NCBI GenBank assembly: GCA_903882665.1
Contig: CAIRXW010000014.1
Span: 1 to 64,000, forward strand
DNA length: 64,000 bases
Direction of reading: 5' to 3'
Source of the DNA: an uncultured Chlorobiaceae bacterium
GTDB taxonomy: Bacteria; Bacteroidota; Chlorobiia; Chlorobiales; Chlorobiaceae
A program made the translations under genes and the position numbers. This document shows, in pieces, positions 5,764 through 34,400 of this stretch. The stretch's first letter is position 1, and every line of letters starts with the position of its first letter. The notes beneath the pieces were generated by a model. The model worked only from the letters and a program-made list of their open reading frames with translations. It was not told where the DNA came from and made no database searches.

Positions 5764-6642
5764 ATGGAAGAAATCGTAAAAACAATACAGGGAACACCTA
5801 TCCCCAATTTATTGATTATTTCAGGGATTGTTTTTATTCTTTTGTCGATTACCGGTGGAATCAGTGGGAAGATCAATATTACCCCACAAAAACAGAAGGT
5901 GGCAAGCCTTTTCGGGACTGGTTTTTTGATCATTGGCCTGTTGTTGATTTTTATACCCGTAAATGGCGGAATTGATCATCCAAAGCCGCCATCGACTCCT
6001 GTGCCTGTTCCCCAGCCCCCCAATCCGAAGTCATGGGAAAGCTGGAATAAAGTTGTTGACGAAACGTTTTCCGATAATGCAGCCAACTGGCCAAGTGACA
6101 GTACCGCAACCGATTTTTTGAGCGGAAAGGCAGGCGTTATTGACGGAAAATACAGGCTTGACTATACATTCAATAACAGTACAGGTGCCTACTGGTCAAA
6201 GATGGCTCCATACATGCCAATCAGTGATTTCTATTTTGCTGCGGATTTTAATGTTGTTGCGCCAAGAAGTAATGCTGAGAAAGGAGCCGGTACAGGTCTT
6301 TATTTCAGATGGAGTGGAACCAAAGGGTATGTTTTTATTCTATCTGCTAATGCGAAATATGCCTTATTCTCCCTTGAAAACGGAGTCTGGAAAGAAATAA
6401 TCGGATGGACTGTTATTCCCGGTCTGAACGTATACAAGAGAAATCGTATAGCGGTTCTTGCCGATGGCCCCTTGATTACTTTATACATAAACGACAAAAA
6501 GTGTGCCGCAATTGAAGACCATGCAAATATTACTGGAAATTACGGACTTCTTGTTGAGGGGTGGAGTAAAGACAGTTTTGTTGTAGATTTCGATAATATC
6601 GCGGTCTATGAAAAGCCTGATTCTCTGAAGAGTGGATTATAG
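5764..6642 (+). CDS. Membrane-anchored protein with lectin/LamG-like domain
   Basis: A 292-residue protein of unknown function. Two hydrophobic helices lie at about residues 16-36 and 46-64 (LLIISGIVFILLSITGG and ASLFGTGFLIIGLLLIFI). A Pro-rich linker follows (residues 70-90), then a beta-rich domain of about 190 residues beginning ETFSDNAANWPS. That domain has the layout of concanavalin/LamG-like or DUF1080-like folds (GLYFRWSGTKGYVFILS, ITLYINDKKCAAI, YGLLVEG). The linker and domain probably face outward. GGAG in CTGGAGAGATA precedes the ATG. Carbohydrate binding is an inference from fold resemblance only. Confidence 0.7.
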   Translation: MEEIVKTIQGTPIPNLLIISGIVFILLSITGGISGKINITPQKQKVASLFGTGFLIIGLLLIFIPVNGGIDHPKPPSTPVPVPQPPNPKSWESWNKVVDETFSDNAANWPSDSTATDFLSGKAGVIDGKYRLDYTFNNSTGAYWSKMAPYMPISDFYFAADFNVVAPRSNAEKGAGTGLYFRWSGTKGYVFILSANAKYALFSLENGVWKEIIGWTVIPGLNVYKRNRIAVLADGPLITLYINDKKCAAIEDHANITGNYGLLVEGWSKDSFVVDFDNIAVYEKPDSLKSGL

Positions 6643-18848: not shown

Positions 18849-19541
18849 TTAATCCTTTATGCAGCGTACAGCACTCCCCGTTCTTTTTTCCTGGGAAGAT
18901 ATCGTGATAACGGCATTTTGAAAGTCGAATTGCGTATACCAGGCAAGGTCGGGCGCGGCCTCTGAAGATGACCATATAAAGGCGTTTTCACCCAGAAAGA
19001 GGAATGCCATCTCTTCCGTTCCTCTGAGGCCGCCTGGCTCCGCGTGAAAATGGATGGTGTTATCGACAGCAAGAGCCGGATAACGCCATGTTGAGAGAGC
19101 ATGTATCTTCCTTTCTTCGGTAGCAGAATTTCCTGTTAACGTGTTTGCAGCGTTTATCCACTCTTCTTTGGACGGTAAATGCCATCCTGACGGAGCAATT
19201 CCGCGTGGGTCGTTCACGGCATACCAGTTATAGAGCCGACCATATTGGTTCGCATTTGCCGGATCGTTTTTGTAGTAACACCAGGCACCCTCTTTTTTTG
19301 CCGAGGCATCAAGCCACTCTTCGTTGGTTTTGGCTTGTCGGATGGGATCGCCGTTTCTGTACCTTGAGACGTTCAGGTTATCGCGCATCCAGACTTTTTT
19401 GCCGATGGTGACGAAGCTGTAGGCGTTGCCGTCAATATCAAGAGGGAGTGCGGCAGCTTCTGCTCGCAGAGAAGCGAGTGATGTTATCACGGTGATTACC
19501 AGGATAAGGAGCCCGTACATTGCATGCTGTTTCTGTTTCAT
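18849..19541 (-). CDS. Exported FISUMP-domain protein
   Basis: A 230-residue exported protein carrying the Fibrobacter succinogenes major paralogous (FISUMP) domain, a surface-protein module of unknown role. A signal peptide covers about residues 1-29 (YGLLILVITVITSLASL, then AEAAA). Domain hallmarks in order are IGKKVWMRDNLNVSRYRNG, GRLYNWYAV, GIAPSGWHLPSKEEW, FIWSSSE and the terminal AVRCIKD. The C-type-lectin-like fold is typical of the family. Its upstream region holds one copy of the 11-bp-repeat operator shared with three other genes in this window. Confidence 0.88.
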   Translation of the reverse strand: MKQKQHAMYGLLILVITVITSLASLRAEAAALPLDIDGNAYSFVTIGKKVWMRDNLNVSRYRNGDPIRQAKTNEEWLDASAKKEGAWCYYKNDPANANQYGRLYNWYAVNDPRGIAPSGWHLPSKEEWINAANTLTGNSATEERKIHALSTWRYPALAVDNTIHFHAEPGGLRGTEEMAFLFLGENAFIWSSSEAAPDLAWYTQFDFQNAVITISSQEKRTGSAVRCIKD

Positions 19542-19610
19542 GGAAAAGTTCTGTTAGGTTGTTATTGTTTGGATAAACTGGCGTTATGCCGTTACTTTTT
19601 TTCCGTTCAA

Positions 19611-19655
19611 AACATAACAGAACCATCCTTAAAGGGTTATTAAAAAAAGCTTAAA
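19611..19655 (-). promoter_or_regulatory. 11-bp-repeat operator and promoter of FISUMP gene
   Basis: On the minus strand: TTTAAG (19655-19650), TTTAAT (19644-19639) and TTTAAG (19633-19628), exactly 11 bp apart. A -10-like TATGTT (19616-19611) begins 17 bp after the start of the last hexamer. The same geometry occurs upstream of tlpA and of both Big_5 genes. Confidence 0.75.
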
Positions 19656-19778
19656 AGATTCAAAAAATATCATTGTTGTTGTGTGAGCAAGGGAAATACC
19701 GCTCAGACAACGATGACGAGGGGGGCAGCACCAGCATGTCACGCCCGGGCCAGGGTGCCGGACGTGACGATAAGCTTG

Positions 19779-20576
19779 TCAGCTCTGCGAGTAGGTGTGG
19801 ACGCTGTTGGCGGCCGAGGGGAGGTAGTTGACTCCGAACCAGCAGACCAGAAGTACTACAAAGGAGAGGGCCAGGTACCACTGCAGTTTGGCTCGGTCAA
19901 TCTTGTAGCGCCAGGCGTGAAGATAGCCGAGATAGGCAAGCCAGGAGAGAAAAGCCCAGGTCTCTTTGGGATCCCATGTCCAGTAATGGCCCCACGCCTC
20001 TTTTGCCCAGAGCGCACCGAAGATAAGGCCGAAGGAGAGCAGCACAAATCCAAGCAGTGCCAGATAGTGTGAGACCGATTCACCGGTACGGTTTTCCTTT
20101 TTCCTCACCTGAAGCGAGACGTTGTGCAATGCCGTCACCGATGATGCGGCAAGCAGCACATAGCCCACCAGGTAGACGATCACATGCGGAATGAACCAGG
20201 GGCTCTGCAGGGCAGGCATCAGCGTTTTGTCGAAAACCTCGGGATGGAGCATGTTGATGCCGAGAAAAAATGCGGCCAGTGCCATGCAGTAGTATTTCAG
20301 CCAATCGATCTTCCAGCGGTATTCAACCAGAAAGCCGACAAGCGGAATCAGCGTCGCATACCAGAGCCGTGTTTCGCCAAGTGTTCTGAGGGGCGGACGG
20401 TCAAGGAGTACCCAGTAAAAAGCGATAAAGGCGGCCATAACCAATGAGCCTCCAAAAGAGAGGATAAAAGCCGGGAGTTTCAGCGCGGGAGTTCTCCGGG
20501 AGAAAAGGCTCATCAGGGCACCAAGTGTCCAGCAGGTAATGGCCGCTATTGCGGCGTTAGTGAAGTTAACAGTCAT
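19779..20576 (-). CDS. ccsA: Cytochrome c biogenesis protein CcsA/ResC
   Basis: A 265-residue integral membrane protein of the system II heme lyase. It presents heme for covalent attachment to CxxCH motifs of exported c-type cytochromes. About eight hydrophobic segments are visible, with the WWD heme-handling motif WGHYWTWDPKETWAFLSW near residue 205 and conserved His residues in other helices. The start overlaps the resB stop by 4 bp (ATGA), so the pair is translationally coupled. A cytochrome-porin gene lies close by and would be a client. Confidence 0.92.
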   Translation of the reverse strand: MTVNFTNAAIAAITCWTLGALMSLFSRRTPALKLPAFILSFGGSLVMAAFIAFYWVLLDRPPLRTLGETRLWYATLIPLVGFLVEYRWKIDWLKYYCMALAAFFLGINMLHPEVFDKTLMPALQSPWFIPHVIVYLVGYVLLAASSVTALHNVSLQVRKKENRTGESVSHYLALLGFVLLSFGLIFGALWAKEAWGHYWTWDPKETWAFLSWLAYLGYLHAWRYKIDRAKLQWYLALSFVVLLVCWFGVNYLPSAANSVHTYSQS

Positions 20577-21814
20577 GATGCCCCCTCAGTGCGTTTAATG
20601 CCATTCCAGAAAAAGAGAATGTTCCCTGCCATAATCATAAAAAAGCCAAGATAGACTGCCGGCAACCAGGGGTCGCGGATAACTTCGATCAGGCTCACTT
20701 TCGACCATCGTCCTGCTTTTTGATCGTAACCCATCTGGTAGAGCTTCCACCCCACAAAGTTTATCGGATGGTTCACCTCAAGGGTTGCCTTTGATTGATT
20801 GCCTGTTTCGTCCTGTACGGTCACCTCCGAGCGGAATGCTTTCGGTGTGCCCGGCCTGATGCCAAGGGATAGTGAGCCCGCTTGAGCGTCCTTCGTATCA
20901 ACAAAGGGACTGCCGGTCGTTATCCATTCCTCGCGCACTGTTGCGTTGGTGCTGGTGATCCTGATTTTTGCAAAAGGAATTCCTGCTGTGCGGTCTGCCG
21001 ACTCGGGAACTCCACTCTTTCCGGGAAGCGCATAGGGCATAAAATCGAGCACGTCAACGTCCACACCTTTCCATGACGCCTTGAGCCCCTTGTGGACAAG
21101 GATGTTTGCTTTCGAGCGCTCCTCAAAAATTTTTCCGGTCTTCTGTTCAAAGAGCAGCAATTGTGGCGGGTATTCCTCAAGTGAAAAATCCCGGAGAAAA
21201 ACAGAAAAAGGGAGAATTTGTGGTGTCTCGCTATCCATGGTATAACCAAGATTGCTCGCTTTTCCCTCTTCGACCGGCACTACAAGCCGCTGAAGGTCGG
21301 GGGCACCAAGAATTGCGCAGGAAAGCGCTATCCAGAAGCCTGCATGAAAGAGAATAAACTGGAGATTCTGCACCTTGAACGGCACAAGCTTCCATGAAAG
21401 AGAGAGGCCAAGATTTGCGAGAAAGAGCAGGATGGTCAGCGCAAATGGCCAGCTTGAAAAAATCTGGTTCAGGCCGAGCAGAGCAGGACGCGAGCCTGGA
21501 GCAGGCGCCGTCTGCGGTATGATACCTCCAATCAGGGAGAGGAGCGCAATGGCACAAATCAGGCTGAGGCCAAGCGGAATTCCTCCCAGCCATTTGACAA
21601 ACGCGTTGTTCCGGAACGCAACTCCTGCGCTTATGATCGCAACAGCGAAGATGCCAAGAAAGAGTGCGTTATAGGGCAAATGGGGTTGGGGTACGCCGAT
21701 GCCCAAACCGGCATATTGTACAGCAAAACCAGCAATAACGGCGACGGCCGTAAAAATGGCAGCCTCCCTGAACTCCCAGGGAGACTGAAACAATCGACGC
21801 GGGAGAACCACCAT
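20573..21814 (-). CDS. resB: ResB-like cytochrome c biogenesis protein
   Basis: A 413-residue membrane partner of CcsA in cytochrome c maturation system II. Hydrophobic segments lie near residues 20-40, 45-65, 80-100 and 120-140 and again at the C-terminus (WLPAVYLGFFMIMAGNILFF). A long periplasmic region between them contains the ResB-type HPINFVGWKLYQMGYDQ. It is shorter than some ResB proteins but has both ends. It overlaps ccsA by 4 bp. Confidence 0.88.
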   Translation of the reverse strand: MVVLPRRLFQSPWEFREAAIFTAVAVIAGFAVQYAGLGIGVPQPHLPYNALFLGIFAVAIISAGVAFRNNAFVKWLGGIPLGLSLICAIALLSLIGGIIPQTAPAPGSRPALLGLNQIFSSWPFALTILLFLANLGLSLSWKLVPFKVQNLQFILFHAGFWIALSCAILGAPDLQRLVVPVEEGKASNLGYTMDSETPQILPFSVFLRDFSLEEYPPQLLLFEQKTGKIFEERSKANILVHKGLKASWKGVDVDVLDFMPYALPGKSGVPESADRTAGIPFAKIRITSTNATVREEWITTGSPFVDTKDAQAGSLSLGIRPGTPKAFRSEVTVQDETGNQSKATLEVNHPINFVGWKLYQMGYDQKAGRWSKVSLIEVIRDPWLPAVYLGFFMIMAGNILFFWNGIKRTEGAS

Positions 21815-22581
21815 AATGACTACCTGTTGGAAAAAACTTGTTATTAATTAAATACGAAGAGCAACCGAACCTTGAAACCATTCACCAGAGTGCGCATAAA
21901 CGCGCAACGGCTATCGTCGTCATTATACAAGAAGCACACTCTATTCGTTCATCTGTCGAAAAATGTCAGGAGTGAGAAACTCCATTTGTGTCGTTTTCAG
22001 GAAAATGGAAAGCCCTGTTCTGCGGCCACAAAATATAAGAGAGCCGAGGGAGTTTCACAAATAACAATCGCGACCATTTTTTCCGGATGGAGCCATCGCG
22101 ACTCCTCTTGACGCAGAAAGGAAGGGGTTTGTGTTTTAAATTTTCTTTTTCTATCTTGAGTCAGTTTTAAATTGATAGCCGTGCAGAAGAGTGCTTGATT
22201 GAGGCTTGTTATCGTTAGAACGTCTCCCTTTTTTTTATTTGGCAGTCAATTCTGTCGATGCGCTCTTAACAATTGTTAGTCAGCTCTTGTTTGCAAGAGT
22301 CCTTATTTACATGCAGCGTACCTTTGTTTCTCTGGTGAAGGTGCTGTTTTTTGCGCTCTTTTTTTATTAAAAGTTTGAAAATTCAATAAAATTCAATAAA
22401 ATCAGGCATACTGCGTTTTTCGGTCTGTTATTCAATGATTTTTATGTTGGCTAACAACGAAGGGCAGTGTCACCCGGGGATTTGCTGCATGATGCACTTC
22501 CTTGTTTTTTTTATACCGTTGTTGGCAAAAAAGACAATCAAGACAGGTCAATTCAAACAAATAACATGGAGTAGTCGGCTT
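21815..22581. other. 767-bp AT-rich intergenic region
   Basis: Divergent region between resB and the cytochrome-porin gene. No gene was supported: the frame at 21872-22111 has no family features or ribosome binding site. It is AT-rich, with a short direct repeat AAATTCAATA at about 22380-22400. The frame of the downstream gene is open from 22435, but that extension lacks a signal peptide and is taken as untranslated leader. Confidence 0.5.
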
Positions 22582-23967
22582 ATGAAAAAAACGACATTCG
22601 CAAGTATTGTCTCTATCTGTATGGTTCCAGCGCTGTTCTGGAGCACAGAGGGATCTGCAATACCGTCCTGGGCAAGAAAGTACAACACCTCATGCTACAT
22701 GTGCCACTCTGGCATGCCGCAGAGGAATGCAGTTGGTGAAGCCTTCAAGAACAATGGCTACCGTCTGCCAGGTGGAAACGATGAAGCATTCACCCGTCAG
22801 AAAAACATCAAGATCGGAACGGCTGACTGGGACAAGAACTTCCCGAATGCTCCTGTTTCGGGCTCATATCCCCAGTTTGATCCGTTAAGCGTTGTTGTCA
22901 CGGGCAACCTGATCAACTACAAGGAGGCAAGCCACTACGTATCAACAGGTGCCCCAAAGGCAGCCAAAGAGTTTACCCTTAACGCAGCTAATAGCGCATC
23001 GCTTTTCATTGGCGCTACCGTCGGTGATAACCTGACGATTTTTGGTGAGTTGGCTGGATTTGGCGGTGCAGCATTGGAAGAAGATGTTGATAATACTACC
23101 ATTTCCTCGTCTAATGTTGACAGCCCTGTTACCTCCAATATTCGTGCAGTATGGCAGTTCTCTCCCGGTTTCAACCTTGCCATTGGTAACAGCTTCAGCG
23201 CAGTTGGCTGGAATGGCACCGGTGCTGGCGGCGTGGCAAACGTTGGCAGTGTGCTTCCTGGACCAGTAACCTATGCTGAGTTGAACTTCACCAGAGGCGA
23301 GACGGGTGGCTACTCCATCGTTGCAGGTACCAGCATGGGTGCAAATTACAGAACACCTATCGTGGCTACCGACAATCACATTGATGATATTCTCTATCTT
23401 CGTGGAAAGGTGAAGCTGATCGGTGCAGGTCTGCTCAGTGGTGCCAATGGGCAGCTTGGCAATGCCTATAACGGCCTTGACAACCAGTTGTCGATTGGTG
23501 CAGGTCTCTCCTATGCCAACAAAAAAAATAGTTATACTACCAGCGGGTCTCTTGTAGCTGGCTCATCAACTGTTGGTTTTACAGGCAACTATGCTGGTGA
23601 GACACTGGTTTATGGTGGCGATGTACAGGGAGCCTATCAGAACCTCCTCGGTGGCGCGGCATACAGTCGTGATCGTGATCTTGGTCTGGACAACTACAGG
23701 ATTGAGGCTGGCTACTTTATCTATCCATGGCTGTTTGCAAAGGTCGGTTACGTTGATATCGCGAAGGCAAACAATCAGATTGCGACCAGGAAAGGAAAAG
23801 CAGATGTTCACCAGCCTCAGATTATCCCATCGATTTCCGCATGGATTACGCCGAGTGTCTCTCTGACTGGTATCTACACTATTTTCACGAAATCGAGTGA
23901 CGTCAACAGCACCGGTAGTTTTACCAATCAGAACACCTTTGCCCTGGCTGTCAGGGCTGGCTTCTGA
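22582..23967 (+). CDS. Cyc2-like monoheme cytochrome-porin fusion
   Basis: A 461-residue outer-membrane protein. The ATG at 22582 gives a signal peptide to about residue 26 (MKKTTFASIVSICMVPALFW). A short heme segment follows: ARKYNTSCYMCHSGMP with CxxCH at residues 38-42, then NAVGEAFKNNGYRLPGG. Residues about 70-461 are alternating beta strands ending in LAVRAGF, an outer-membrane barrel with a terminal Phe. An N-terminal one-heme domain fused to a porin is the layout of Cyc2 outer-membrane iron oxidases and relatives. Heme attachment would use the nearby CcsA/ResB. The substrate (iron, sulfur species, another donor) is not shown by the sequence. Confidence 0.8.
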   Translation: MKKTTFASIVSICMVPALFWSTEGSAIPSWARKYNTSCYMCHSGMPQRNAVGEAFKNNGYRLPGGNDEAFTRQKNIKIGTADWDKNFPNAPVSGSYPQFDPLSVVVTGNLINYKEASHYVSTGAPKAAKEFTLNAANSASLFIGATVGDNLTIFGELAGFGGAALEEDVDNTTISSSNVDSPVTSNIRAVWQFSPGFNLAIGNSFSAVGWNGTGAGGVANVGSVLPGPVTYAELNFTRGETGGYSIVAGTSMGANYRTPIVATDNHIDDILYLRGKVKLIGAGLLSGANGQLGNAYNGLDNQLSIGAGLSYANKKNSYTTSGSLVAGSSTVGFTGNYAGETLVYGGDVQGAYQNLLGGAAYSRDRDLGLDNYRIEAGYFIYPWLFAKVGYVDIAKANNQIATRKGKADVHQPQIIPSISAWITPSVSLTGIYTIFTKSSDVNSTGSFTNQNTFALAVRAGF

Positions 23968-24017
23968 TCACCTGTTGATCCGGCTCTCCTGATTTTTCAG
24001 GAAAGCCTGTTTGTGAG

Positions 24018-24058
24018 AGAGGCATGTTCATCGTGTATGGACATGCCTCTTTTTTTTG
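24018..24058 (+). terminator. Rho-independent terminator after cytochrome-porin gene
   Basis: Stem AGAGGCATGT (24018-24027) pairs with ACATGCCTCT (24041-24050) and is followed by an uninterrupted T-run to 24057. Confidence 0.93.
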
Positions 24059-24070
24059 TTCTGGTCATTT

Positions 24071-24126
24071 TTTAAGTGAATTTTAAGCATGGGCTAATGG
24101 GGTTTTAAGGTTTTATTGCGTAACAT
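24071..24126 (+). promoter_or_regulatory. 11-bp-repeat operator and promoter of tlpA operon
   Basis: TTTAAG at 24071 and 24082, degenerate GCTAAT at 24093, TTTAAG at 24104, all 11 bp apart. A -10-like TAACAT (24121-24126) starts 17 bp after the last hexamer begins. No good -35 is present, so the last repeat seems to replace it, as in activator-dependent promoters. Confidence 0.75.
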
Positions 24127-24221
24127 CAAAATTGATCATATCATCGGGGATGCCTGCAAGCGTTATGGCATACCGCGATAACCGGTTCCGCTGGCACCAT
24201 TCTTAATCAAACCCTACAATT

Positions 24222-24737
24222 ATGGTAATTTTTTCGAGGAAAACATTCAGAACCGTGCTCTTTGCCTCCCTTTTGTGTCTTGGTTGCAATGGCACCTCTT
24301 ATGCTCTTGTGGCTGGAAGCAAGGCGCCCGATTTCAGTCTCCCTGGAGCGCAGGGTACGGTGGAGCTTTCGAGCACGGCCGGCTCGGTTGTCTATGTTGA
24401 TTTCTGGGCATCCTGGTGTGGCCCCTGCAAGCAGTCATTCGGGTGGATGAACGCCATGCAGGACAAATACAGGGCGAAGGGACTGAAAATTATCGGTGTC
24501 AATGTTGATGGCAAAACCGAGGATGCCAAAAAATTTCTGGTGCAGACTCCGGCCCACTTTACCGTCGCCTTTGATGCAAAAGGTGTGACGCCAAAAAATT
24601 ATGGGGTCATGGGTATGCCGACCAGTTTTCTGGTGGGCCGGGATGGCAAAATCATCTTTCAGCATCAAGGGTTTAAAGAGGCTGATCGTGAACAACTTGA
24701 AAAACAGATCAACGCTGCACTGGAGGCAAAAAAATGA
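24222..24737 (+). CDS. TlpA/ResA-like thiol-disulfide oxidoreductase
   Basis: A 171-residue exported thioredoxin-fold protein. The N-terminus (TVLFASLLCLGCNG) is a signal sequence with a possible lipobox. The redox motif is WCGPCK in YVDFWASWCGPCKQSFGW, and the cis-Pro is in GVMGMPTSFLVG. Such proteins reduce apocytochrome CxxCH or other periplasmic disulfides, receiving electrons from DsbD or CcdA, which is encoded 5 kb downstream. It overlaps the DUF4266 gene by 4 bp and heads the TlpA-DUF4266-DUF3570 set. Confidence 0.92.
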   Translation: MVIFSRKTFRTVLFASLLCLGCNGTSYALVAGSKAPDFSLPGAQGTVELSSTAGSVVYVDFWASWCGPCKQSFGWMNAMQDKYRAKGLKIIGVNVDGKTEDAKKFLVQTPAHFTVAFDAKGVTPKNYGVMGMPTSFLVGRDGKIIFQHQGFKEADREQLEKQINAALEAKK

Positions 24738-24970
24738 AAAAAAATGTATTGCTGAAATCTGGTTACGCCCTTCTGTTGCTGATGCTTGCCTTGTCTGGCT
24801 GCTCAATCGGTCCGGCTGTTCAGCCGTGGGAAAAAGAGACCCTCGCCAAGCCTGAGATGACCTTTGAGGGCGATCCGCTCGACAACAAGTACACTGAGCA
24901 TATCTACAGCAGCAAAGAGGCCGCTTCCGGCGGTGCCGGGGTAGGCGGTGGCGGCTGCGGTTGCAATTAA
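24734..24970 (+). CDS. DUF4266 lipoprotein
   Basis: A 78-residue lipoprotein. Lipobox ALSGC places the lipidated Cys near residue 22. The mature part has FEGDPLDNKYTEHIYSSKEA and ends in a Gly/Cys tail, GVGGGGCGCN, characteristic of DUF4266. ATGA overlap with tlpA indicates coupling. DUF4266 genes commonly sit between a TlpA-like gene and a DUF3570 gene, as here; the role is unknown. The two tail cysteines could be redox-active or bind metal. Confidence 0.88.
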   Translation: MKKNVLLKSGYALLLLMLALSGCSIGPAVQPWEKETLAKPEMTFEGDPLDNKYTEHIYSSKEAASGGAGVGGGGCGCN

Positions 24971-24998
24971 CCTGAATTTTAATTTTCATGACACTCCT

Positions 24999-26174
24999 AT
25001 GAAATCACTCCCGACAAAAAAAAATCATGTGCTCGGCGCGGCCCTTTTTGCCGCAGCCATGGCATTGCCCGTCTCAAATGCAGCGTTTGCTGAAGCAGCG
25101 CCGGAACGCGGCATTGTTGCCTTTAAATACCTTAATTACGAAGACAGCCAGCCCGGCGTGGAGCGGATGGATATCAACGCCTATACGGTTTCGGCCATGG
25201 CCCCCATCGCTGGCGAGTGGTCGATCAGCACCTCCTATACCTACGATTCAGTTACTGGCGCCTCACCTAAATTTCACACCTATTTTGATCCGCCAGCAAC
25301 AGATGGGACGTCAGGGGCTTCAAAAATCAAGGAACAGCGTTATTCCGGAGACCTGAGCGTCACCCGTTATCTGTCGAAGGGGAGTGTGACCGCCGGCACG
25401 AGCTATTCCAAGGAAAACGACTACATTTCGCGCGGTTATTCAGCCCAGGGAAGCATTTCGACTGAGGACAAGAATACAACCTTTACCTTTGGTGGCAGCT
25501 ATACAACGGATACGATCAACTCCAGCAATTCTATTGCTAAAAATCAGGCAAAGAGAACTGTTGCCGGGCTGGTAGGCGTTACACAGGTCTTGACAAAGCA
25601 GGATATTGTGCAGGTGAACCTCGGCTATTCGAGGGGCAAGGGCTATTTCAATGACCCGTACAAGGATCTGGATCAGAGACCGGACAAGAAGGAGATCAAG
25701 ACGGTTATGACCCGATGGAATCACCATTTTGATGGTATTGATGGCACGAGCCACCTCTCATACCGCTATTATACCGACACCTTCGGCATCAGGGCCCATA
25801 CGTTTGGGCTGGAATATCTTCAGTCGCTGCCGAATGAGTGGACCGTAACTCCTTCGGTAAGGTTCTCTTCCCAGACAGCGGCCGACTTTTATTTCCCGAC
25901 AAATCCTGCTGATGATCCGACCATGGTTCCTCCTGATGCTGAAAACCTGTTTGTGGCCGGATCCTGTGTCTCTTTGGATCAGCGACTTTCATCCTTCGGT
26001 GCGCTCACGCTTGGCATCAAGGTGTCGAAGCGGATTGCCAAGGATTGGCTGGTTGATGTGAAATATGAAAACTATGAGCAGCGCGCAGGCTGGAGCATGA
26101 CTGGTGGCGGCGATGCCGGGCTTGCACCATTCAGTGCATCGTTCTTTCAGGTTGGCCTTTCACGGGAGTTCTGA
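24999..26174 (+). CDS. DUF3570 outer-membrane protein
   Basis: A 391-residue exported protein. The ATG at 24999 gives a signal peptide ending near AAFA-EA (residue 31); the longer frame from 24948 lacks one. The mature part is rich in alternating beta strands and ends in FFQVGLSREF with terminal Phe, so a beta barrel is likely. Residues 83-89 read DSVTGAS, which resembles the ApbE flavinylation consensus Dxx(S/T)GA(T/S), with Thr86 as the possible FMN site. ApbE is encoded two genes downstream. The function of DUF3570 is uncharacterised; an electron-transfer role is inferred from its neighbours. Confidence 0.88.
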   Translation: MKSLPTKKNHVLGAALFAAAMALPVSNAAFAEAAPERGIVAFKYLNYEDSQPGVERMDINAYTVSAMAPIAGEWSISTSYTYDSVTGASPKFHTYFDPPATDGTSGASKIKEQRYSGDLSVTRYLSKGSVTAGTSYSKENDYISRGYSAQGSISTEDKNTTFTFGGSYTTDTINSSNSIAKNQAKRTVAGLVGVTQVLTKQDIVQVNLGYSRGKGYFNDPYKDLDQRPDKKEIKTVMTRWNHHFDGIDGTSHLSYRYYTDTFGIRAHTFGLEYLQSLPNEWTVTPSVRFSSQTAADFYFPTNPADDPTMVPPDAENLFVAGSCVSLDQRLSSFGALTLGIKVSKRIAKDWLVDVKYENYEQRAGWSMTGGGDAGLAPFSASFFQVGLSREF

Positions 26175-26203
26175 CTTTCGTAAAGCGTCACATCAGGCAT
26201 GTC

Positions 26204-26246
26204 AGCCACCCGATCCCTGCAAGGGGGTTGGGTGGCTTCTTTTTTT
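26204..26246 (+). terminator. Terminator after DUF3570 gene
   Basis: Stem GCCACCC (26205-26211) pairs with GGGTGGC (26230-26236) and is followed by TTCTTTTTTT. The T-run merges directly into the 11-bp-repeat operator of the next gene. Confidence 0.9.
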
Positions 26247-26299
26247 AAGCAAAATTTAAGATTCCATTAATAATGCTTTAAGGCCAAATGGGCTATAAT
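26244..26299 (+). promoter_or_regulatory. 11-bp-repeat operator and promoter of first Big_5 gene
   Basis: TTTAAG at 26244 and 26255, ATTAAT at 26266, TTTAAG at 26277, with -10 TATAAT at 26294-26299. Spacing is identical to the tlpA, FISUMP and second Big_5 promoters. Similarity with the second Big_5 upstream region continues through the leader to the start codon. Confidence 0.8.
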
Positions 26300-26426
26300 T
26301 TGGAAGTTGAAACTTTCTGCGATGTGTCCTATGGTTTTTGAGTATGTTTTTTTTCAAAAGCTGCGTCACGAAAGTTCCTTTTCTGGTTGATCAATACATC
26401 AATTATTAAAAAAAGGAGGGGTCATA

Positions 26427-28298
26427 ATGGCGACCTATACCAAGACAGCTTTAGCTGGTGATCAGAATTATACGTTAGCCTCTTTTAACGGCAACGAACC
26501 AGGAAGTGGCAATATTTACACTTGGGATGGAGGGGCCGGAACGGACAAGCTGACCCTTGGCGGCAGTGGAGGCAGTTATCTGGGGAATTATCCCAGAGCA
26601 AATTTTACCATCAATCCTGTTAATGCCAGTGGAGTTATTGTGGTGACAGGAGCAAGCAGCTCTAAAAACACCCAGTTAACGCTTAATCTGAAAAGTGTTG
26701 AGACACTGGTTTTTGCTGACGCTGTAGTTCCGCTTGTTTATAACGCCAACAATTCGCCCACCGGTGCCGTAACGATCTCCGGAACAGCGACCCAGGGAGC
26801 GATCCTCACCGCTACCAACAACCTTGCTGATGCTGACGGACTTGGGCCGATCAGCTACCAGTGGTATGCTGCCGGTACGGCTATTGCCGGAGCAACCGCA
26901 AGCACCTTGACATTAGCCGAGGCGCAGGTAGGCAAAGTTATTACGGTAAAAGCGAACTACACCGATTTACTGGGTACTGCCGAGAGCGTCAGCAGTGGAT
27001 CGACGGCTGCGGTGCTCAATGTCAATGATGCTCCAACTGGCGGAGTGACGATCAGCGGAACAGCCTCTACTGGCCAGACCCTTACAGCGAGCCATACGCT
27101 GGCGGATGCGGATGGACTTGGTGTTATCAGTTACCAGTGGAATGCTGCCGGTGCGGCTATTGCCGGAGCAACGGGGAACACCCATCTCTTGACGCTGGCC
27201 GAGGCTGGCACTATCATCACGGTGACGGCAAGCTACATTGATGGCCATGGTACTTCGGAGCACGTGACCAGTGTGGCTACATCGCCCGTTTTTACTAACC
27301 ATGCCCCGACCGGATTGGTGACGATCGCTGGCACAGCGACCCAGAACGAGCAACTCACGGCAAGCCATACGCTGGTGGATGCGGACGGGCTTGGAACGAT
27401 CAGCTATCAGTGGTATGCTGCTGGTACGGCTATTGCCGGAGCAACCGCAAGCACCTTGACGTTAGCCGAGGCGCAGGTAGGCAAAGCCATTACGGTACAT
27501 GCGAACTATACCGACGGTCACGGTACTCCCGAGAGTGTGAGCAGCAGTGCTACGGCTGTGGTGGTCAATGTCAATGATGCTCCAACAGGAGCCGTGACGA
27601 TCAGCGGCACAGCAACGCAATACCATCAACTTGCAGCAGTTACCACTGCGTTGGCGGATGCGGATGGACTCGGTACATTCAGTTACCAGTGGTTTGCTGA
27701 CCAGACGGCTATCGCCAGCGCTACAGCAAGCACCTTGACATTAGCTGCTGCGCAACTCGGAAAGGTTGTTACTGTGGCAGTGAACTATACCGATGGTCAT
27801 GGAACTGCCGAGAGCGTGACCAGTGCGGCAACGAGCGCCATCATCACGGACACCATTGCGCCAACGATCACCAGCTTCACGCCTGCCGATGGTGCTACCG
27901 GTGTTGCCGTTGGAAGCGACCTTGTGTTGCACTTCGACGAAGCGATCCTGAAAGGTACCGGTCTGATTGAAATTCACAGCGGGACAGCAACAGGCGCGCT
28001 TGTGGCAAGCTACGATGCCGCGACGAGCACAAATCTCACCATATCGGGCAGTACGCTCACCATCAATCCGACGGCTGATCTTGCATCCGGTACGCATTAT
28101 TATGTTCTGCTTCCGGATGGCTCGGTCAGTGATCTTGCCGGGAATCACTTTGGGGGGAGTTCGGTGTATGACTTTACGACTGTTGCGGCAGCAGGTGCCG
28201 ATCCCTATGCGGCAAGCAGTGGCGGGGGCGGTGGTGCCGGAGTTGCGTTGGCAGGGGCGGGAGCACTTGGTATTCTTTCATGGGTACTCTTTTTTTAA
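26427..28298 (+). CDS. Repeat-rich surface protein (Ig-like and Big_5 domains)
   Basis: A 623-residue protein with no N-terminal signal peptide. Residues 1-105 form a Gly/Asn-rich domain (YTWDGG, DKLTLGGSGG) shared almost residue for residue with the gene at 31424. Four tandem repeats of about 90 residues follow (hallmarks LADADGLG, ISYQWYAAGTAIAGATAST, LTLAEAQVGKVITV), as in cadherin-like adhesins. One Big_5 domain (TAPTITSF-like start, FDEAILKGTG, YYVLLPDGSVSDLAGN) covers about residues 475-585. The C-terminus is GGGGGAGVALAGAGALGILS and then WVLFF, a Gly-rich hydrophobic tail without basic residues. AAAGGAGG precedes the ATG. It separates DUF3570 from apbE. Adhesion or cell-surface structure is inferred. 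Confidence 0.8.
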   Translation: MATYTKTALAGDQNYTLASFNGNEPGSGNIYTWDGGAGTDKLTLGGSGGSYLGNYPRANFTINPVNASGVIVVTGASSSKNTQLTLNLKSVETLVFADAVVPLVYNANNSPTGAVTISGTATQGAILTATNNLADADGLGPISYQWYAAGTAIAGATASTLTLAEAQVGKVITVKANYTDLLGTAESVSSGSTAAVLNVNDAPTGGVTISGTASTGQTLTASHTLADADGLGVISYQWNAAGAAIAGATGNTHLLTLAEAGTIITVTASYIDGHGTSEHVTSVATSPVFTNHAPTGLVTIAGTATQNEQLTASHTLVDADGLGTISYQWYAAGTAIAGATASTLTLAEAQVGKAITVHANYTDGHGTPESVSSSATAVVVNVNDAPTGAVTISGTATQYHQLAAVTTALADADGLGTFSYQWFADQTAIASATASTLTLAAAQLGKVVTVAVNYTDGHGTAESVTSAATSAIITDTIAPTITSFTPADGATGVAVGSDLVLHFDEAILKGTGLIEIHSGTATGALVASYDAATSTNLTISGSTLTINPTADLASGTHYYVLLPDGSVSDLAGNHFGGSSVYDFTTVAAAGADPYAASSGGGGGAGVALAGAGALGILSWVLFF

Positions 28299-28317
28299 GT
28301 AACGATCGGGTTGGATT

Positions 28318-29208
28318 ATGGAGATATATCGTTTTGGATTTGATGCCATGGGAGGCGGTGGTGAAGTTGTCCTTGCGTCGAAGAGCAAAAAAGAGGGCCA
28401 TTCCATAGCCAACCAGGTTTTTGAAGAGGTGGCGAGAATAGAGTACAAGTATTCCCGTTACCGGCCCGAGAGCATTGTTTCCCGTGTCAATGCTGCCGCC
28501 GGCGGTGACTTTGTGGCCTGTGATGAGGAGACCGCGTCATTGATCAACTATGCTGATTCTCTTTATCAGAACAGCGACGGCTTGTTTGATATGACCTCGG
28601 GGGTTTTGCGTCATGCCTGGGATTTCAGCAAGGCTCTCCTGCCGGAACCGGCAAAACTTTCCGGACTGCTTGCTCTTGTCGGGTGGAATCGGGTGGAGCG
28701 GCAGGGTAATGCGATTCGTCTGCCTATGGCCGGTATGGAGATTGATTTTGGAGGTGTTGGCAAGGAGTATGCTGCTGACAGGGCTGCGGCAGTTGTTGCT
28801 GATCAGGGGGTGAGGCATGGGTACGTGAATTTGGCAGGTGACATAAGGCTTGTTGGCCCTAAACCTGATGGGACACCCTGGATTATCGGGATTCAGGATC
28901 CGCGCCACAAAGAGCTTATGATTGCGTCGATTCCGCTTCACAGCGGAGCGTTGGCGACAAGCGGTGACTATGAGCGCTTTTTTGAAGTGGATGGCCATCG
29001 CTACTGCCACATTCTTCATCCCCGGACAGGCTATCCTGTGACCTATTGGCGATCAGTAACGGTTGTTGCTCCTTTGGCCATTACCGCCGGAAGTTGCACA
29101 ACCATAGCAATGTTGAAAGGGGCTGATGCGCTGGCATTTCTGGACGACACCGGGATGGGATACCTGGCGGTAGACCATTGTGGCAAGATATATCATAAAA
29201 ACACATAG
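28318..29208 (+). CDS. apbE: FAD:protein FMN transferase (ApbE)
   Basis: A 296-residue flavin transferase, which moves FMN from FAD to a Ser/Thr of an exported protein in a Mg-dependent reaction. Family landmarks are SRYRPESIVSRVNA, FDMTSGVLRHAWDF, the flavin pocket in IDFGGVGKEYAADRA, NLAGDIRLVG and HILHPRTGYPV, followed by AGSCTTIAMLKG. No clear N-terminal signal is visible, unlike many periplasmic ApbE proteins, so its location is uncertain. It is cotranscribed with, or 19 bp downstream of, the first Big_5 gene. The DUF3570 protein is a candidate target. Confidence 0.93.
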   Translation: MEIYRFGFDAMGGGGEVVLASKSKKEGHSIANQVFEEVARIEYKYSRYRPESIVSRVNAAAGGDFVACDEETASLINYADSLYQNSDGLFDMTSGVLRHAWDFSKALLPEPAKLSGLLALVGWNRVERQGNAIRLPMAGMEIDFGGVGKEYAADRAAAVVADQGVRHGYVNLAGDIRLVGPKPDGTPWIIGIQDPRHKELMIASIPLHSGALATSGDYERFFEVDGHRYCHILHPRTGYPVTYWRSVTVVAPLAITAGSCTTIAMLKGADALAFLDDTGMGYLAVDHCGKIYHKNT

Positions 29209-29243
29209 TACAGTTTTCAGTGTCAATCAATAACTTTTGTCTT

Positions 29244-31130
29244 ATGCGAACAACCAACATGAATTTGCCTGTTCTGAAGCGTGCGACAGCTCTTTTTGCT
29301 CTTTTAATGCTTCTATGCCTCAGGGTGAGCAGCGCTTTTGCTGCTGATTTTCTTGATCCTCAGCAGGCGTTCAAGCTCACTGCCGAGCTGAATAATTCCC
29401 GTACGGTTTTGCTGCACTGGGAGATTGCCAAGGGGTACAAGCTCTATCGCGACAAGGTGACGGTCTCTGTCGAAAGCGGCAAGGCTGAAGTGAAGGCTCC
29501 TGTATTGCCGAAAGGGATCATCATTACGGATCCTTCAACCAATGAAAAAATTGCAATCTATCATGACAAGTTGGATGTCGGGGTCTCTCTTGTCAAGGCT
29601 GACGCGCCATTTACGCTGAGCGTTGTCTATCAGGGATGTGCCGAGGATGGTCTCTGTTATCCGCCAATCACCAGGCTTTTCAAGGTTGATCCTGCCAAAC
29701 CGGGTTTACTGACGGCGGCTGGTGAAGAGGCAGCTACTCCTTCAGGTAACAGCGCTGTTGAAGCTGAAAAGCCGGCATCTGCGGTTCCTTCAGTCGCTGA
29801 AGGTGCGGCACCCTCGAAAGTGGCCGCAGCGGACAATGATCTCTCTCTGGCAACAGCCACCCTTGCCGGGGGAAGTTTGTGGAAAATTGCCCTTGCTTTC
29901 CTTGCATTCGGCCTGCTCCTGTCGTTTACCCCTTGTGTTCTGCCGATGGTGCCGATTCTCTCCTCAATCATTGTGGGTGAGGGAGATGTTACCCGCCGTC
30001 GCAGTTTTCTGATGGCACTTGCCTATTGCCTCGGAATGGCGTTGGTCTATACGTCGCTTGGTGTTGCTGCCGGTCTTGCGGGCGAAGGGCTGGCCGGTGC
30101 CTTGCAGAAGCCATGGGTTCTGGTGATGTTTGCGTTGCTGCTTGTTCTCCTCTCTCTCTCCATGTTCGATGTCTATCAGTTGCAGTTGCCAGTCGCTTTG
30201 CAAAGCAAGCTTGGCAAGGCTTCCGGTGGTTTGAAGCGGGGCCGTTTTGCCGGGGTCTTTTTTATGGGTGCTCTGTCGGCGCTTATTGTAGGCCCTTGCG
30301 TTGCTGCGCCTCTTGCAGGAACCCTTGTCTATATCAGTCAAACGCGCGACGTGCTTCTTGGTGGACTGGCTCTCTTTTCGATGGCTATGGGAATGAGTGT
30401 GCCTCTGTTGCTTGTCGGTCTTTCAGCAGGCAGTTTGCTGCCCAAGGCCGGCGCATGGATGATTGGTGTCAAGTATGTGTTCGGGCTTCTGTTAATTGCG
30501 GTTGCCATCTGGATGGTCTCGCCAATTCTGCCAGCTCCGGCGGTCATGCTTTTTTGGGGAGCGTTCGCTATTCTCTGCTCGGTTTTTCTCGGTGTTTTCG
30601 ATACTTCAGTCGCAAAACCAACGATTGCTCTTCGTTTTGGCAAAACCTTTGGTCTGGTTCTTTTTGTTATCGGCTTACTGGAGCTTGTCGGGGCTGCTGC
30701 CGGCGGTACCAATGCGCTTGAACCGCTTTCGCAGATCCGCAGCGTATCGACTGTCAGCTCAGGAGAGGAAAAGGGAGTCGGCTTCACTCGTATCAAGACG
30801 GAAGCAGAGCTTGATCAGGCACTGCTCTCAGCAAAAAACCCGGTTATGCTCGATTTCTATGCTGACTGGTGTGTCGCCTGCAAGGAGATGGATCGCTTTA
30901 CGTTTCATGATCCAAAGGTTATTGAGCAGCTTGGCAATCTGACGCTCTTGCAGGTTAATGTTACGGCCAATAGTGCAGACGATCGTGCCTTGATGAAGCG
31001 TTTCGGCCTCTTCGGCCCTCCAGGTATGATCTTTTTTGATACCAGCGGAAAGGAGATTGCGGAAAGCCGGATTGTCGGTGTGCTTGAGGCGCGTGCTTTT
31101 TTTGATCATGTTGCCAAAGTCTTGCGGTAA
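29244..31130 (+). CDS. dsbD: Thiol:disulfide interchange protein DsbD
   Basis: DsbD moves electrons from cytoplasmic thioredoxin across the membrane to periplasmic thiol proteins. All three parts are present: an N-terminal immunoglobulin-like domain with CAEDGLCYPP (about residues 140-150), a membrane domain with paired Cys in SFTPCVLPMVPILSS and IVGPCVAAPLAG, and a C-terminal thioredoxin domain with YADWCVACKEMD. The signal peptide follows LPVLKRATALFALLMLLC. The start may be the ATG at 29244 or 29259; the GTG at 29220 is less likely. It can supply reductant to the TlpA-like protein encoded upstream. Confidence 0.93.
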   Translation: MRTTNMNLPVLKRATALFALLMLLCLRVSSAFAADFLDPQQAFKLTAELNNSRTVLLHWEIAKGYKLYRDKVTVSVESGKAEVKAPVLPKGIIITDPSTNEKIAIYHDKLDVGVSLVKADAPFTLSVVYQGCAEDGLCYPPITRLFKVDPAKPGLLTAAGEEAATPSGNSAVEAEKPASAVPSVAEGAAPSKVAAADNDLSLATATLAGGSLWKIALAFLAFGLLLSFTPCVLPMVPILSSIIVGEGDVTRRRSFLMALAYCLGMALVYTSLGVAAGLAGEGLAGALQKPWVLVMFALLLVLLSLSMFDVYQLQLPVALQSKLGKASGGLKRGRFAGVFFMGALSALIVGPCVAAPLAGTLVYISQTRDVLLGGLALFSMAMGMSVPLLLVGLSAGSLLPKAGAWMIGVKYVFGLLLIAVAIWMVSPILPAPAVMLFWGAFAILCSVFLGVFDTSVAKPTIALRFGKTFGLVLFVIGLLELVGAAAGGTNALEPLSQIRSVSTVSSGEEKGVGFTRIKTEAELDQALLSAKNPVMLDFYADWCVACKEMDRFTFHDPKVIEQLGNLTLLQVNVTANSADDRALMKRFGLFGPPGMIFFDTSGKEIAESRIVGVLEARAFFDHVAKVLR

Positions 31131-31159
31131 AAAGTCTCATTCGGAAGTACTCCCTCTTT

Positions 31160-31236
31160 GCAGCATACATACCCTGTTAAACTGGTTGGCATCGGCCAAT
31201 ATTGAGCAGCGGGATGTATGCTGCAGCTATTTTTTA
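31160..31236 (+). terminator. Terminator after dsbD
   Basis: Stem GCAGCATACAT (31160-31170) pairs with ATGTATGCTGC (31214-31224) with additional CCC/GGG pairing, followed by AGCTATTTTTT. It abuts the operator of the next gene, as in the region at 26204. Confidence 0.8.
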
Positions 31237-31287
31237 GCAAAATTTAAGTTGCCATTAATATTGCTTTAAGGCTCATGAGGCTATTAT
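31232..31287 (+). promoter_or_regulatory. 11-bp-repeat operator and promoter of second Big_5 gene
   Basis: TTTTAG at 31232, TTTAAG at 31243, ATTAAT at 31254, TTTAAG at 31265, and -10 TATTAT at 31282-31287. The arrangement equals that at 26244 and the following leader is also conserved up to the Shine-Dalgarno and ATG. Confidence 0.8.
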
Positions 31288-31423
31288 TGGGAAGTTGAAA
31301 TTTTCTGAATGTGTTGTGTTGCTTTTGACGATGTTTTTTGCCGAAAGCGGCGTCACGAAACTCCCTTTTCAGGGATAGAACTCTTGATCAATACATCAAT
31401 TATTAACGAAAGGAGAGGGCATA

Positions 31424-34400
31424 ATGGCGACTTATACAAAGACCGGCACCGCTAATGCTGATAACTATACGTTAGCTTCTTTTAACGGCAACAAGCCGGT
31501 AAGTGGAAATATTTACACTTGGGATGGGGGGAACGGGACAGACAAGTTGACCCTCGGCGGCAGTGGAGGCCAATATACCGCAAATTATCTCCAGGCAAAT
31601 TTCACCATTAATCCTGTTAATGCCAGTGGTGTTATTGTGGTGACTGGCGCAAGTAGTAACGGCACCTCAATAACCCTCAATCTGACAAGTGTTGAGACAC
31701 TGGCTTTTGCTGACGGGAGTGTTACGCTGGTTTACGGCGCACCTCCCGTACCTCCCGTACCTCCCGCTCCTCCATCAGATACGACCGCGCCGACCGTTTC
31801 CACTTTCAGCCCTTCAGATGCCGCAGCCGGTGTAGCCGTCGGGAGCAATATTGTCTTGACCTTCGACGAGGCAATCCAGAAGGGGAGTGGTTCGATCGTG
31901 ATACACAGCGATTCAGCAACCGGTGCAGCCGTAGCAACCTACGATGCGGCTGCGAGCGCCAACCTTTCGGTATCGGGCAATACGCTCACCATCAATCCGA
32001 CCGCTGATCTGGCTGCTGGCACCCACTATTTTGTTACGCTGGATGCTGGCTCAATAAAGGATCTTGCGGGTAACAGTTATGCGGGAACGACAACCTACGA
32101 TTTCACGACGGTTGCACCTCCTGCACCAGATACGACCGCGCCGATCGTTTCCACCTACAGCCCTTCATACGCTGCTGCCGGTGTGGCTGTCGGGAGCAAT
32201 ATTGTTTTGACCTTCAGCGAAGCAATCCAGAAGGGTAGTGGTTCGATCGTGATACACAGCGATTCAGCAACCGGTACCGTTGTAGCAACCTATGATGCGG
32301 CTGCGAGCGCCAACCTTTCGGTATCGGGCAATACGCTTACCATCAATCCGGCCGCTGATCTTGCTGCCGGCATACACTATTTTGTTACGCTCGACGCAGG
32401 CTCAATAAAGGATCTTGCGGGGAACAGTTATGCCGGGACGACAACCTACGATTTCACGACGGTGGCCGCTCCGGCGCCTCCCGCTCCTCCATCAGATACG
32501 ACCGCGCCGACCGTTTCCACTTTCAGCCCTTCAGATGCCGCATCCGGTGTAGCCGTCGGGAGCAATATAGTCTTGACCTTCAGCGAAGCAATCCAGAAGG
32601 GGAGTGGTTCGATCGTGATACACAGCGATTCAGCAACCGGTACCGTCGTAGCAACCTACGATGCGGCTGCGAGCGCCAACCTTTCAGTTACGGGCAATAC
32701 GCTTACCATCAATCCGACCGCTGATCTTGCTGCCGGCACACACTATTTCGTTACGCTGGATGCAGGTTCAATAAAGGATCTTGCGGGTAACAGTCATACG
32801 GGGACGACAACCTACGATTTCACAACGGTGGCCGCTCCAGCAGCAGATACGACCGCGCCGACTGTTTCTACCTTCAGCCCTTCTGATGCTGCTGCCGGTG
32901 TCGCTGTCGGAAGTGATATTGTGTTGACCTTCAGTGAAGCAATCCAGAAGGGGATTGGCTCGATCGTGATACACAGCGGTTCAGCAACCGGTGCAGCCGT
33001 GGCAACCTATGATGCGGCTGCGAGCGCCAACCTTTCGGTATCGGGCAATACGCTCACCATCAACCCAACCGCTGATCTTGCTGCCGGCACACACTATTTT
33101 GTTACGCTCGATGCAGGCTCAATAAAGGATTTTGCGGGAAACAGTTATGCCGGGACGACAGCCTACGATTTCACCACGGCTGCCACTCCTGTAGCAGACA
33201 CGACCGCGCCGACTGTTTCCACCTACAGTCCCTCAAATGCTGCCACCGGTGTCGCTGTAGGAAGTGATATTATGTTGACCTTCAGCGAATCAATTCAGAA
33301 GGGGATTGGTTCGATCGTGATACACAGTGGTTCCGCAACCGGTGCAGCCGTAGCAACCTTTGATGCTGCGACGAGCGGAAATCTTTCGGTATCGGGCAAT
33401 ACGCTCACCATTAACCCGTCAAGTGATCTTGCAACTGGTACAGATTATTTTGTTACGCTCGACACAGGTTCGATAAAGGATCTTGCAGGCAACAGTTATG
33501 CTGCCCAGACAGGATATCATTTTGTGACCAATGCTCATGTGATGGTTGCGGGATCACTTGAGAGTTGGGAATATCTCGCCTCCTGGCCTGATTTGATGAA
33601 CTGGCTGGGAACCGATGTTGTTGCGGCAGCTTGGCATTACAATAATTATGGCGCGGCGGAACACCGTTCTATCACTTTTGACGCATGGGACTATCTTGCA
33701 TCAAACGTTGATCTGATGAACTGGCTGGGATCAGATGTCCAAAAGGCGGCCGAGCACTATATTCTGAGTGGCCGGAATGAAAACCGCTCATTTGCTTTTG
33801 ATGCCGCGGCCTACCTTTCGGCGAATCCCGATCTTGCATTGTGGCTTGGCACCGATTATGACGCAGCCGCCAAACACTATATCGAGTTTGGTCGCTTTGA
33901 GATGGCTCAGGGTTTGCGCCCCTCGTTTGCTGAGGTGTTTTTGACTCCGCCTTCGGTTATCGATTATGCTCCTGTTGATGCGGCCTTTGGCGTGCATGTC
34001 AGCAGTGACATTGTTCTGACCTTCAGCGAAGCTATCCAGAAGGGAGTCGGCACGGTAACGATTCACTCTGATTCTGCTGCAGGAGTGCCTGTGGCCACCT
34101 ATGATATGGCATCAAGCGGAAATCTTTCGGTGTCGGGAAGTACCCTCACGATCAACCCGACGGCTGATCTTGCACATGGCACACACTATTTCGTTACGCT
34201 GGACGCAGGATCGGTCAAGGATCTTTTGGGAAACAGTTACGCAGGTACATCTGCCTATGACTTTACAACAGCTCCTGCTGCCGATACGACAGCCCCAACA
34301 GTTTCCGTTTACAGCCCGTCAGGTGCGGCCATCGGGGTCACCGTTGGAAGCGATATTGTCTTGACCTTCAGTGAAGCAATCCAGAGGGGGAGTGGTACCA

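Follow-up and report, generated by a model that had tools for sequence, protein, structure and literature searches.

What controls four promoters that carry the same repeated element in place of a recognizable −35? The question arises in a 64,000-nt stretch of DNA from an uncultured Chlorobiaceae bacterium (hereafter the window: positions 1–64000 of contig C14, in a genome of 2.81 Mb and 57 contigs), where a FISUMP gene, a tlpA-like gene and two Big_5 genes are each preceded by a box of TTTAAG-like hexamers. As we argue below, a single signal-receiving regulator, which would switch on proteins for electron export, probably docks at this box. Comparison of genome sequences makes it quite likely that the box is the operator of a single two-component system, with a response regulator encoded on contig C37 (the C37 regulator) as its binder and activator.

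An 11-bp repeat at a fixed distance from −10

Each of the four boxes spans 39 bp (Table 1); its hexamers sit at offsets 0, 11, 22 and 33, and a −10-like hexamer follows at offset 50. An initial annotation of this DNA had described TTTAAG-like hexamers recurring every 11 bp in three or four copies; the periodicity is exact, and there are four copies at every promoter. Copies 2 and 4 read TTTAAG in all four boxes and copy 1 in two, and copy 3 is degenerate throughout. On re-measurement, the −10 hexamers do begin exactly 17 bp from the start of the last repeat in all four cases, and the accompanying statement that no good −35 is present agrees with a TTGACA-type scan of 19400–31500, in which none of the four −10s is used by any promoter. 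Given its strict 11-bp direct repeats and fixed −10 distance, the box has the form of an operator of the OmpR/PhoB-family type. In a matrix scan of the window only these four boxes reach ≥10 bits (47.9–56.4 bits), against a top score of 4.6 in 60 dinucleotide shuffles, a comparison that is circular in that the matrix was partly trained on close copies of the same four sites. The four promoters are not fully independent, because the regions upstream of the two Big_5 genes are near-copies; since these regions are alike well past the box, they probably arose by duplication. Terminator-like hairpins end right before three of the boxes (the third hairpin is weaker), which fits promoters located between operons, and Rfam yields no family at its gathering threshold between 18500 and 32000.

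Because matrix-based scores are partly circular (including, in part, those at the regulator loci L021–L052 considered below), we place the weight on counts of a plain four-part pattern, on its reversed and 10-bp controls, and on a permutation test at more distant loci (L053–L100). The pattern was written from the window sites and allowed up to 3 mismatches, with the reversed pattern as control. It matches 10 times in the source genome, 6 of these outside the window, versus 0 for the control. The corresponding counts are 113 versus 3 in 19 same-genus genomes and 422 versus 10 in 86 genomes of the family, 78 of which have at least one match. In 12 other-family genomes, the pattern is at control level (6 versus 8), and ten same-order genomes of other families likewise give 6 versus 8. 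Over the 31 genomes formed by the 19 and the 12, the 11-bp pattern totals 119 matches versus 11 for its control, and a version with 10-bp steps gives 0 (7 for its own reversed control). The concern raised with the initial annotation, that a genome-wide scan might find the pattern at random frequency, is answered by these counts. Outside the family, many further genomes show both pattern and control matches. Three single distant genomes stand above control (G284, 10 versus 0; G255, 8 versus 0; G240, 7 versus 2); none has a match to the C37 regulator at E 1e-75, and they possibly hold another regulator with a similar site. The third element of the box matters, because a looser pattern of three hexamers with the third element left free (3 mismatches) is at noise level in the source genome, with 13 matches versus 10; its extra weak matches (e.g., on C46 and C55) were discarded as noise. 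One of the 10 matches given above, upstream of ilvD (C7:25450, 3 mismatches), is probably spurious, since neither it nor its two orthologs have the −10; it was kept in the count.

The promoter geometry recurs at nearly all sites examined for it. Among 97 distinct sites found by the pattern alone, blind to the −10 (own-genome loci L001–L010 and same-genus loci L104–L121 and L127–L192, leaving aside L101–L103 and the other-family loci L122–L126), 93 have TAnnnT at offset 16–17 (84 at 17 and 9 at 16); between 6 and 39, no further offset has more than 8. The exceptions, four in all, comprise three ilvD-upstream matches that are orthologous to one another and one site in G006 beside a paralog of the regulator. 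A logo of 82 matrix-scored sites from 18 relatives (all listed matches in 10 genomes, two of four in G018, and one or two loci in seven more) reads TTTAAG / TTTAAG / TTMAK / TTTAAG and then TAnnnT, with little information between. The final G is kept in 78%, 93% and 91% of these sites in copies 1, 2 and 4, respectively, and the −10 lies a median of 71.5 nt from the first predicted start codon. Across Chlorobiaceae, the 39-bp consensus is thus TTTAAG-N5-TTTAAG-N6-TTMAK-N5-TTTAAG, followed by N10–11 and a TAnnnT −10.

A candidate regulator on contig C37

The source genome contains three matches to the OmpR-family DNA-binding (C-terminal) domain: the C37 regulator (G000:C37:6222-6935; PF00072 and PF00486), a PhoB-like regulator with a PhoR-like kinase (L019), and a divergent one. 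The gene of the C37 regulator shares a putative operon with those of a DUF4405 membrane protein and a histidine kinase, and a box stands 5' of the first gene of that operon; the 12-kb stretches around the PhoB-like and divergent regulators contain no box at ≥10 bits. The closest named relatives of the C37 regulator are from Chlorobiaceae, which marks the source as a green sulfur bacterium, and its best matches in the other-family genomes reach only 33–41% identity. Its recognition helix, VIDVYITFLRRKL, has the same form in 79 of the 80 relatives fetched (the expression used missed L091) and resembles the helix VVEVYVSKVRKKL published for CiaR of Streptococcus.

Regulator and box occur together. 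In the 86 family genomes (regulator called at E ≤ 1e-75; raw genome counts with no correction for relatedness), the regulator is found in 79, and its presence agrees with that of the box in 83: 77 genomes have both, 6 neither, 2 the regulator only and 1 the box only (Fisher p 4e-7, or 2e-5 when one match per regulator-bearing genome is discounted for the operon's own box). Regulator-bearing genomes have a median of 5 pattern matches, and six of the seven regulator-less genomes have none. We also sought tlpA in nine genomes. Four regulator-less ones (G033, G045, G046 and G050) keep the gene with no box in the fetched locus; the regulator-less G057 and G065 gave no tlpA match, and no tlpA was found in the regulator-bearing g9 genome G049.

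The box also accompanies the regulator gene itself, lying within 1 kb upstream of it in 27 of 32 loci from Chlorobiaceae and Chlorobiota (L021–L052) and in 37 of 48 more distant loci (L053–L100; mostly Ignavibacteria, other Bacteroidota, Calditrichota, Kiritimatiellales and KSB1, with some Chlorobiaceae paralogs). Of 200 column-permuted motifs compared at each locus, no more than 1 attained the score of the box. Several distant genomes open the operon with a DUF2231-type gene rather than DUF4405 (Pfam check: L075 only).

Several observations weigh against assigning the box to the C37 regulator. Five of the 32 and 11 of the 48 loci have no box within 1 kb upstream (among the box-less loci, L026 has only 384 bp of upstream sequence, and in L048, L050 and L052 a box-like site lies beyond that distance), and the matrix used for L021–L052 may have been trained on some of those same promoters. 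The box-less loci include L054, L055, L058 and L060, Chlorobiaceae regulators of 67–70% identity that are probably paralogs. Eleven genomes besides G086 carry one or two extra paralogs each, at 63–70% identity (G005, G006, G016, G060, G061, G063, G064, G083, G087, G090 and G093), and these could share or take over boxes; the four box-less Chlorobiaceae loci in that identity range speak the other way. As for co-occurrence, G070 (92% complete) and G053 (66% complete) have the regulator and no pattern match, and G013 (85% complete, 350 contigs) has three matches with no regulator found. G086 (84% complete, 470 contigs), with 12 matches, was counted as regulator-bearing on a single 69%-identity match that is perhaps a paralog. 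The Fisher value overstates independence, because the seven regulator-less genomes are few and partly related. Among g9 genomes, G032 has the regulator and no box at tlpA, and of the two tlpA copies in the regulator-bearing G041 only one has a box. Finally, in many Chlorobi the sensor loop of the kinase is acidic, and often rich in His, but it differs in the distant kinases compared, which leaves a cation or metal signal as no more than a guess.

At some of the more distant regulator loci, further box-like sites are present. One such site, the second at its locus, stands 5' of a rubrerythrin-type gene that immediately follows the regulator–kinase pair (L056, L059, L061, L065, L066, L074, L075, L078 and L081, with the Pfam check made for L075 only), at about 6056–6077 in the fetched loci (3045 in L059 and 3390 in L065), which suggests a link to oxidative stress. 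CTTAAG versions precede both the regulator and a resistance–nodulation–division (RND) efflux-type gene in several Bacteroidota loci and one Calditrichota locus (Pfam check: L084 only), the site at the RND gene being weaker (16–34 bits; L082, L083, L084, L087, L090, L092, L096, L098 and L100).

A proposed mode of action and competing explanations

The type of operator is already known, and the box would work like the sites of CiaR, HP1043 and PmrA. The CiaR site of Streptococcus (PMC3091779) is TTTAAG-N5-TTTAAG, or NTTAAG-N5-WTTAAG, with the −10 ten bases after it. Hexamer and 5-bp spacer are the same as here, the −10 distance is nearly so (10–11 bases here), and the recognition helices are similar; the CiaR site has two hexamers, whereas four half-sites are conserved here, the third of them distinct (TTMAK), and CiaRH belongs to another phylum and has a different kinase and different targets. 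In Helicobacter pylori, HP1043 (HsrA) binds the same site type: on one promoter its two TTTAAG hexamers, with 5 bp between them, cover −42 to −26, and it activates in vitro (PMC8345958). It is a phosphorylation-independent orphan modelled head-to-head, unlike the present regulator, which is encoded beside a histidine kinase and faces four copies. For PmrA/BasR of enterobacteria, also of the OmpR family and with solved structures (8jo2, 4s04), the direct repeat is YTTAAK, as cited for Salmonella PmrA in PMC10927774. The C37 regulator scores far below the cut-off of the NCBIfam PmrA model (PRK10643; 155.6 bits versus 330), and the identified targets include no lipid A gene. We therefore class the regulator with none of the three, because copy number or curated model scores differ. 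The best among the NCBIfam models listed are those of heavy-metal regulators of the CusR/CopR/CzcR kind, and both the regulator (TIGR01387, 225.4 bits versus a cut-off of 279.2) and its kinase (TIGR01386, 261.1 versus 292.55) fall below the cut-offs; an RND efflux gene does lie near regulator relatives with a box-like site in Bacteroidota and Calditrichota. The CusR site is a palindrome, which is not the site type seen here.

Taken with the promoter geometry, these parallels suggest how the box might act. The phosphorylated C37 regulator, CusR/CiaR-like and of the OmpR family, would bind one face of the DNA as a tandem pair of dimers, with a predicted footprint of about −62 to −24, where it would substitute for the absent −35 and recruit RNA polymerase (class II-type activation). 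It would activate its own operon in the same way. The inducing signal would, as a guess, be extracytosolic redox or metal stress, because of the content of the regulon and the box-like sites at rubrerythrin and RND efflux genes beside regulator relatives in other phyla.

The boxes might instead be bound by a different transcription factor that was lost together with the C37 regulator, whose operon would then be merely another target. Co-occurrence is a correlation, the same genomes could lack further factors, and some genomes hold paralogs of the C37 regulator. We nonetheless consider this unlikely, given that the box stands 5' of regulator relatives in Ignavibacteria, KSB1, Calditrichota, Kiritimatiellales and Bacteroidota, and that this protein family is known to use 11-bp TTTAAG direct repeats as sites. 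It seems no more probable that the C37 regulator binds the box and acts mainly as a repressor. A regulator seated over the −35 and close to the −10 could stand in the way of polymerase, and in several Bacteroidota loci the box is only about 50–62 bp from the regulator start; against this, the four window promoters have no usable −35, and the geometry fits the activators CiaR (N10 to the −10) and HP1043 (−42 to −26).

PhoB belongs to the OmpR family and recognizes direct repeats of 11 bp that cover the −35 region, and the initial annotation had offered PhoB, PhoP and CpxR boxes as models and phosphate limitation among the conditions to examine. Of this, the assignment to a direct-repeat operator of OmpR-family type is supported. 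The models are not the closest ones, since CiaR and HP1043 have published TTTAAG-N5 repeat sites and PmrA has YTTAAK. A reading of the boxes as Pho boxes, bound by PhoB and serving phosphate-starvation genes, would fit by family and by its 11-bp repeats over the −35, and a PhoB–PhoR-like pair is present in the source genome; we rejected it as very improbable. The PhoB–PhoR-like locus has no box, its regulator's helix (TIDTHITRIREKL) differs from the CiaR-like one of the C37 regulator, and the box is at control level in the other-family genomes, where the best matches to the C37 regulator are the weak ones noted above. Phosphate limitation is likewise not indicated, because that locus is box-less and no phosphate gene is among the identified targets (phosphate genes were not inspected one by one). 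Least credible of all is an unusual AT-rich, UP-like core-promoter element acting with no regulator, for although the box is rich in AT and its spacing to the −10 is almost always fixed, it keeps strict 11-bp phase and a conserved final G in copies 1, 2 and 4, and it is confined to a restricted gene set, with few matches per regulator-bearing genome and none in nearly all regulator-less ones.

A candidate redox regulon

If the C37 regulator is the activator, its regulon is best described as about nine promoters in the source genome serving an extracytosolic redox set. The expectation of a small regulon not evident from gene names is thus borne out, on a larger scale than first seen. Beyond the window and the C37 operon itself, boxes lie 5' of trxA-trxB and of a Zn-ribbon gene followed by a TPR gene (both on C57), of a 63-aa membrane-type protein that has no Pfam match and by eye is like the DUF4405 protein (C23), and of a 192-aa membrane-type protein, likewise unmatched in Pfam, whose gene has a multihaem cytochrome c gene behind it (C21). 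The earlier view that all targets are exported or surface proteins holds at most within the window, where the Big_5 proteins have no obvious N-terminal signal by eye; genome-wide, the set includes the cytosolic-type trxA and trxB and the regulator.

The same genes recur behind the box in relatives. A match to a source-genome target or regulator-operon protein (tblastn, E ≤ 1e-5, start within 520 nt of the box) follows 72 of the 82 sites in the 18 relatives, and the other 10 have different or no clear targets. Besides tlpA and the FISUMP gene (Table 1), the recurring targets are the small DUF4405-like protein and the 192-aa protein (8 genomes each), thioredoxin reductase at the trx locus (7 genomes), and the TPR gene (8 sites in 7 genomes, possibly a loose count, as TPR repeats match widely). 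A search for the 192-aa protein found it in one of nine checked genomes (G013). The clusters tlpA-DUF4266-DUF3570 and apbE-dsbD are also found in G002, G010 and G012.

Table 1. Boxes, −10 hexamers, hairpins and genes in the window (window positions)
Feature	Position	Strand	Remark
Box of FISUMP gene	19628..19666	-	TTTTTG/TTTAAG/TTTAAT/TTTAAG, 11-bp steps
−10 TATGTT, FISUMP gene	19611..19616	-	17 bp from last-repeat start
Box of tlpA	24071..24109	+	TTTAAG/TTTAAG/GCTAAT/TTTAAG
−10 TAACAT, tlpA	24121..24126	+	
Box of first Big_5 gene	26244..26282	+	TTTAAG/TTTAAG/ATTAAT/TTTAAG
−10 TATAAT, first Big_5 gene	26294..26299	+	
Box of second Big_5 gene	31232..31270	+	TTTTAG/TTTAAG/ATTAAT/TTTAAG
−10 TATTAT, second Big_5 gene	31282..31287	+	
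Terminator-like hairpin just 5' of tlpA box	24015..24053	+	
Terminator-like hairpin just 5' of first Big_5 box	26204..26237	+	
Weaker terminator-like hairpin just 5' of second Big_5 box	31206..31224	+	
FISUMP gene (Fib_succ_major, PF09603)	18849..19541	-	target; box also in 6 other genomes
tlpA-like thioredoxin-fold protein (Redoxin/AhpC-TSA)	24222..24737	+	target; box also in 10 other genomes
DUF4266 small protein	24734..24970	+	putative operon with tlpA
DUF3570 protein	24999..26174	+	two [S/T]GA[S/T] motifs (TGAS, SGAS); putative tlpA operon
Big_5 protein, 623 aa	26427..28298	+	first gene of putative Big_5-apbE-dsbD operon
apbE, FAD:protein FMN transferase	28318..29208	+	in G010, own box directly 5'
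dsbD, transmembrane thiol:disulfide interchange protein	29247..31130	+	
Big_5 repeat protein, 1328 aa	31424..35410	+	target

The core of this set corresponds to a system already described. According to PMC8238504 (eLife 2021), clusters of DsbD, ApbE, DUF3570, a thioredoxin-like protein and DUF4266 form a flavinylation-based electron-transfer system; the DUF3570 protein of C. luteolum was shown to be flavinylated, and the function of DUF3570-based transfer was called uncertain. The window holds the same system in tlpA-DUF4266-DUF3570 and apbE-dsbD, where ApbE, DsbD, DUF4266, a thioredoxin-like protein and a DUF3570 protein with [S/T]GA[S/T] motifs, whose meaning is taken from that paper, are clustered. 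The thioredoxin-like protein differs in that the window copy is best matched by Redoxin/AhpC-TSA, where the paper has PF13899. In the portions of the paper available to us no regulator is named; the box and the C37 regulator would supply one.

A candidate regulator, operator and gene set can thus be named for the ApbE-flavinylated DsbD/DUF3570 system. The regulon would build an electron path from cytosolic thioredoxin reductase and thioredoxin through DsbD to TlpA, DUF4266 and flavinylated DUF3570, together with a multihaem cytochrome module and surface-type proteins; of these, the cytosolic thioredoxin pair and the cytochrome module would be joined to the path through shared regulation. The consensus is also usable for finding targets in a group with little regulatory knowledge. 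What appears to be new is the C37 regulator, its four-half-site operator and its regulon, for which we found no earlier description in the literature searched (which mostly excluded subscription papers), and not the type of operator.

It is possible, though short of probable, that the picture extends much further: the system, with its four-half-site operator and autoregulated operon, may be kept across the Fibrobacteres–Chlorobi–Bacteroidetes (FCB) group, with two or more Kiritimatiellota genomes besides. Within the green sulfur bacteria it may switch together, as one continuous conduit for extracellular electron or metal redox control, TrxB-TrxA on the cytosolic side, DsbD in the membrane, TlpA/DUF4266/flavinylated DUF3570 beyond it and membrane-anchored multihaem cytochromes, while being absent from the usual model strain.

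Other features of the window genes deserve mention. The first Big_5 protein ends (28200–28298) in a Gly-rich stretch and a short hydrophobic segment, closing with SWVLFF, like a C-terminal sorting signal; the second has a different C-terminus containing SHDSHDSHD. Between tlpA and genes that by eye are like those of cytochrome c biogenesis lies a reading frame (22582–23967) for a 461-aa protein that has CxxCH near its N-terminus, no Pfam match and no box.

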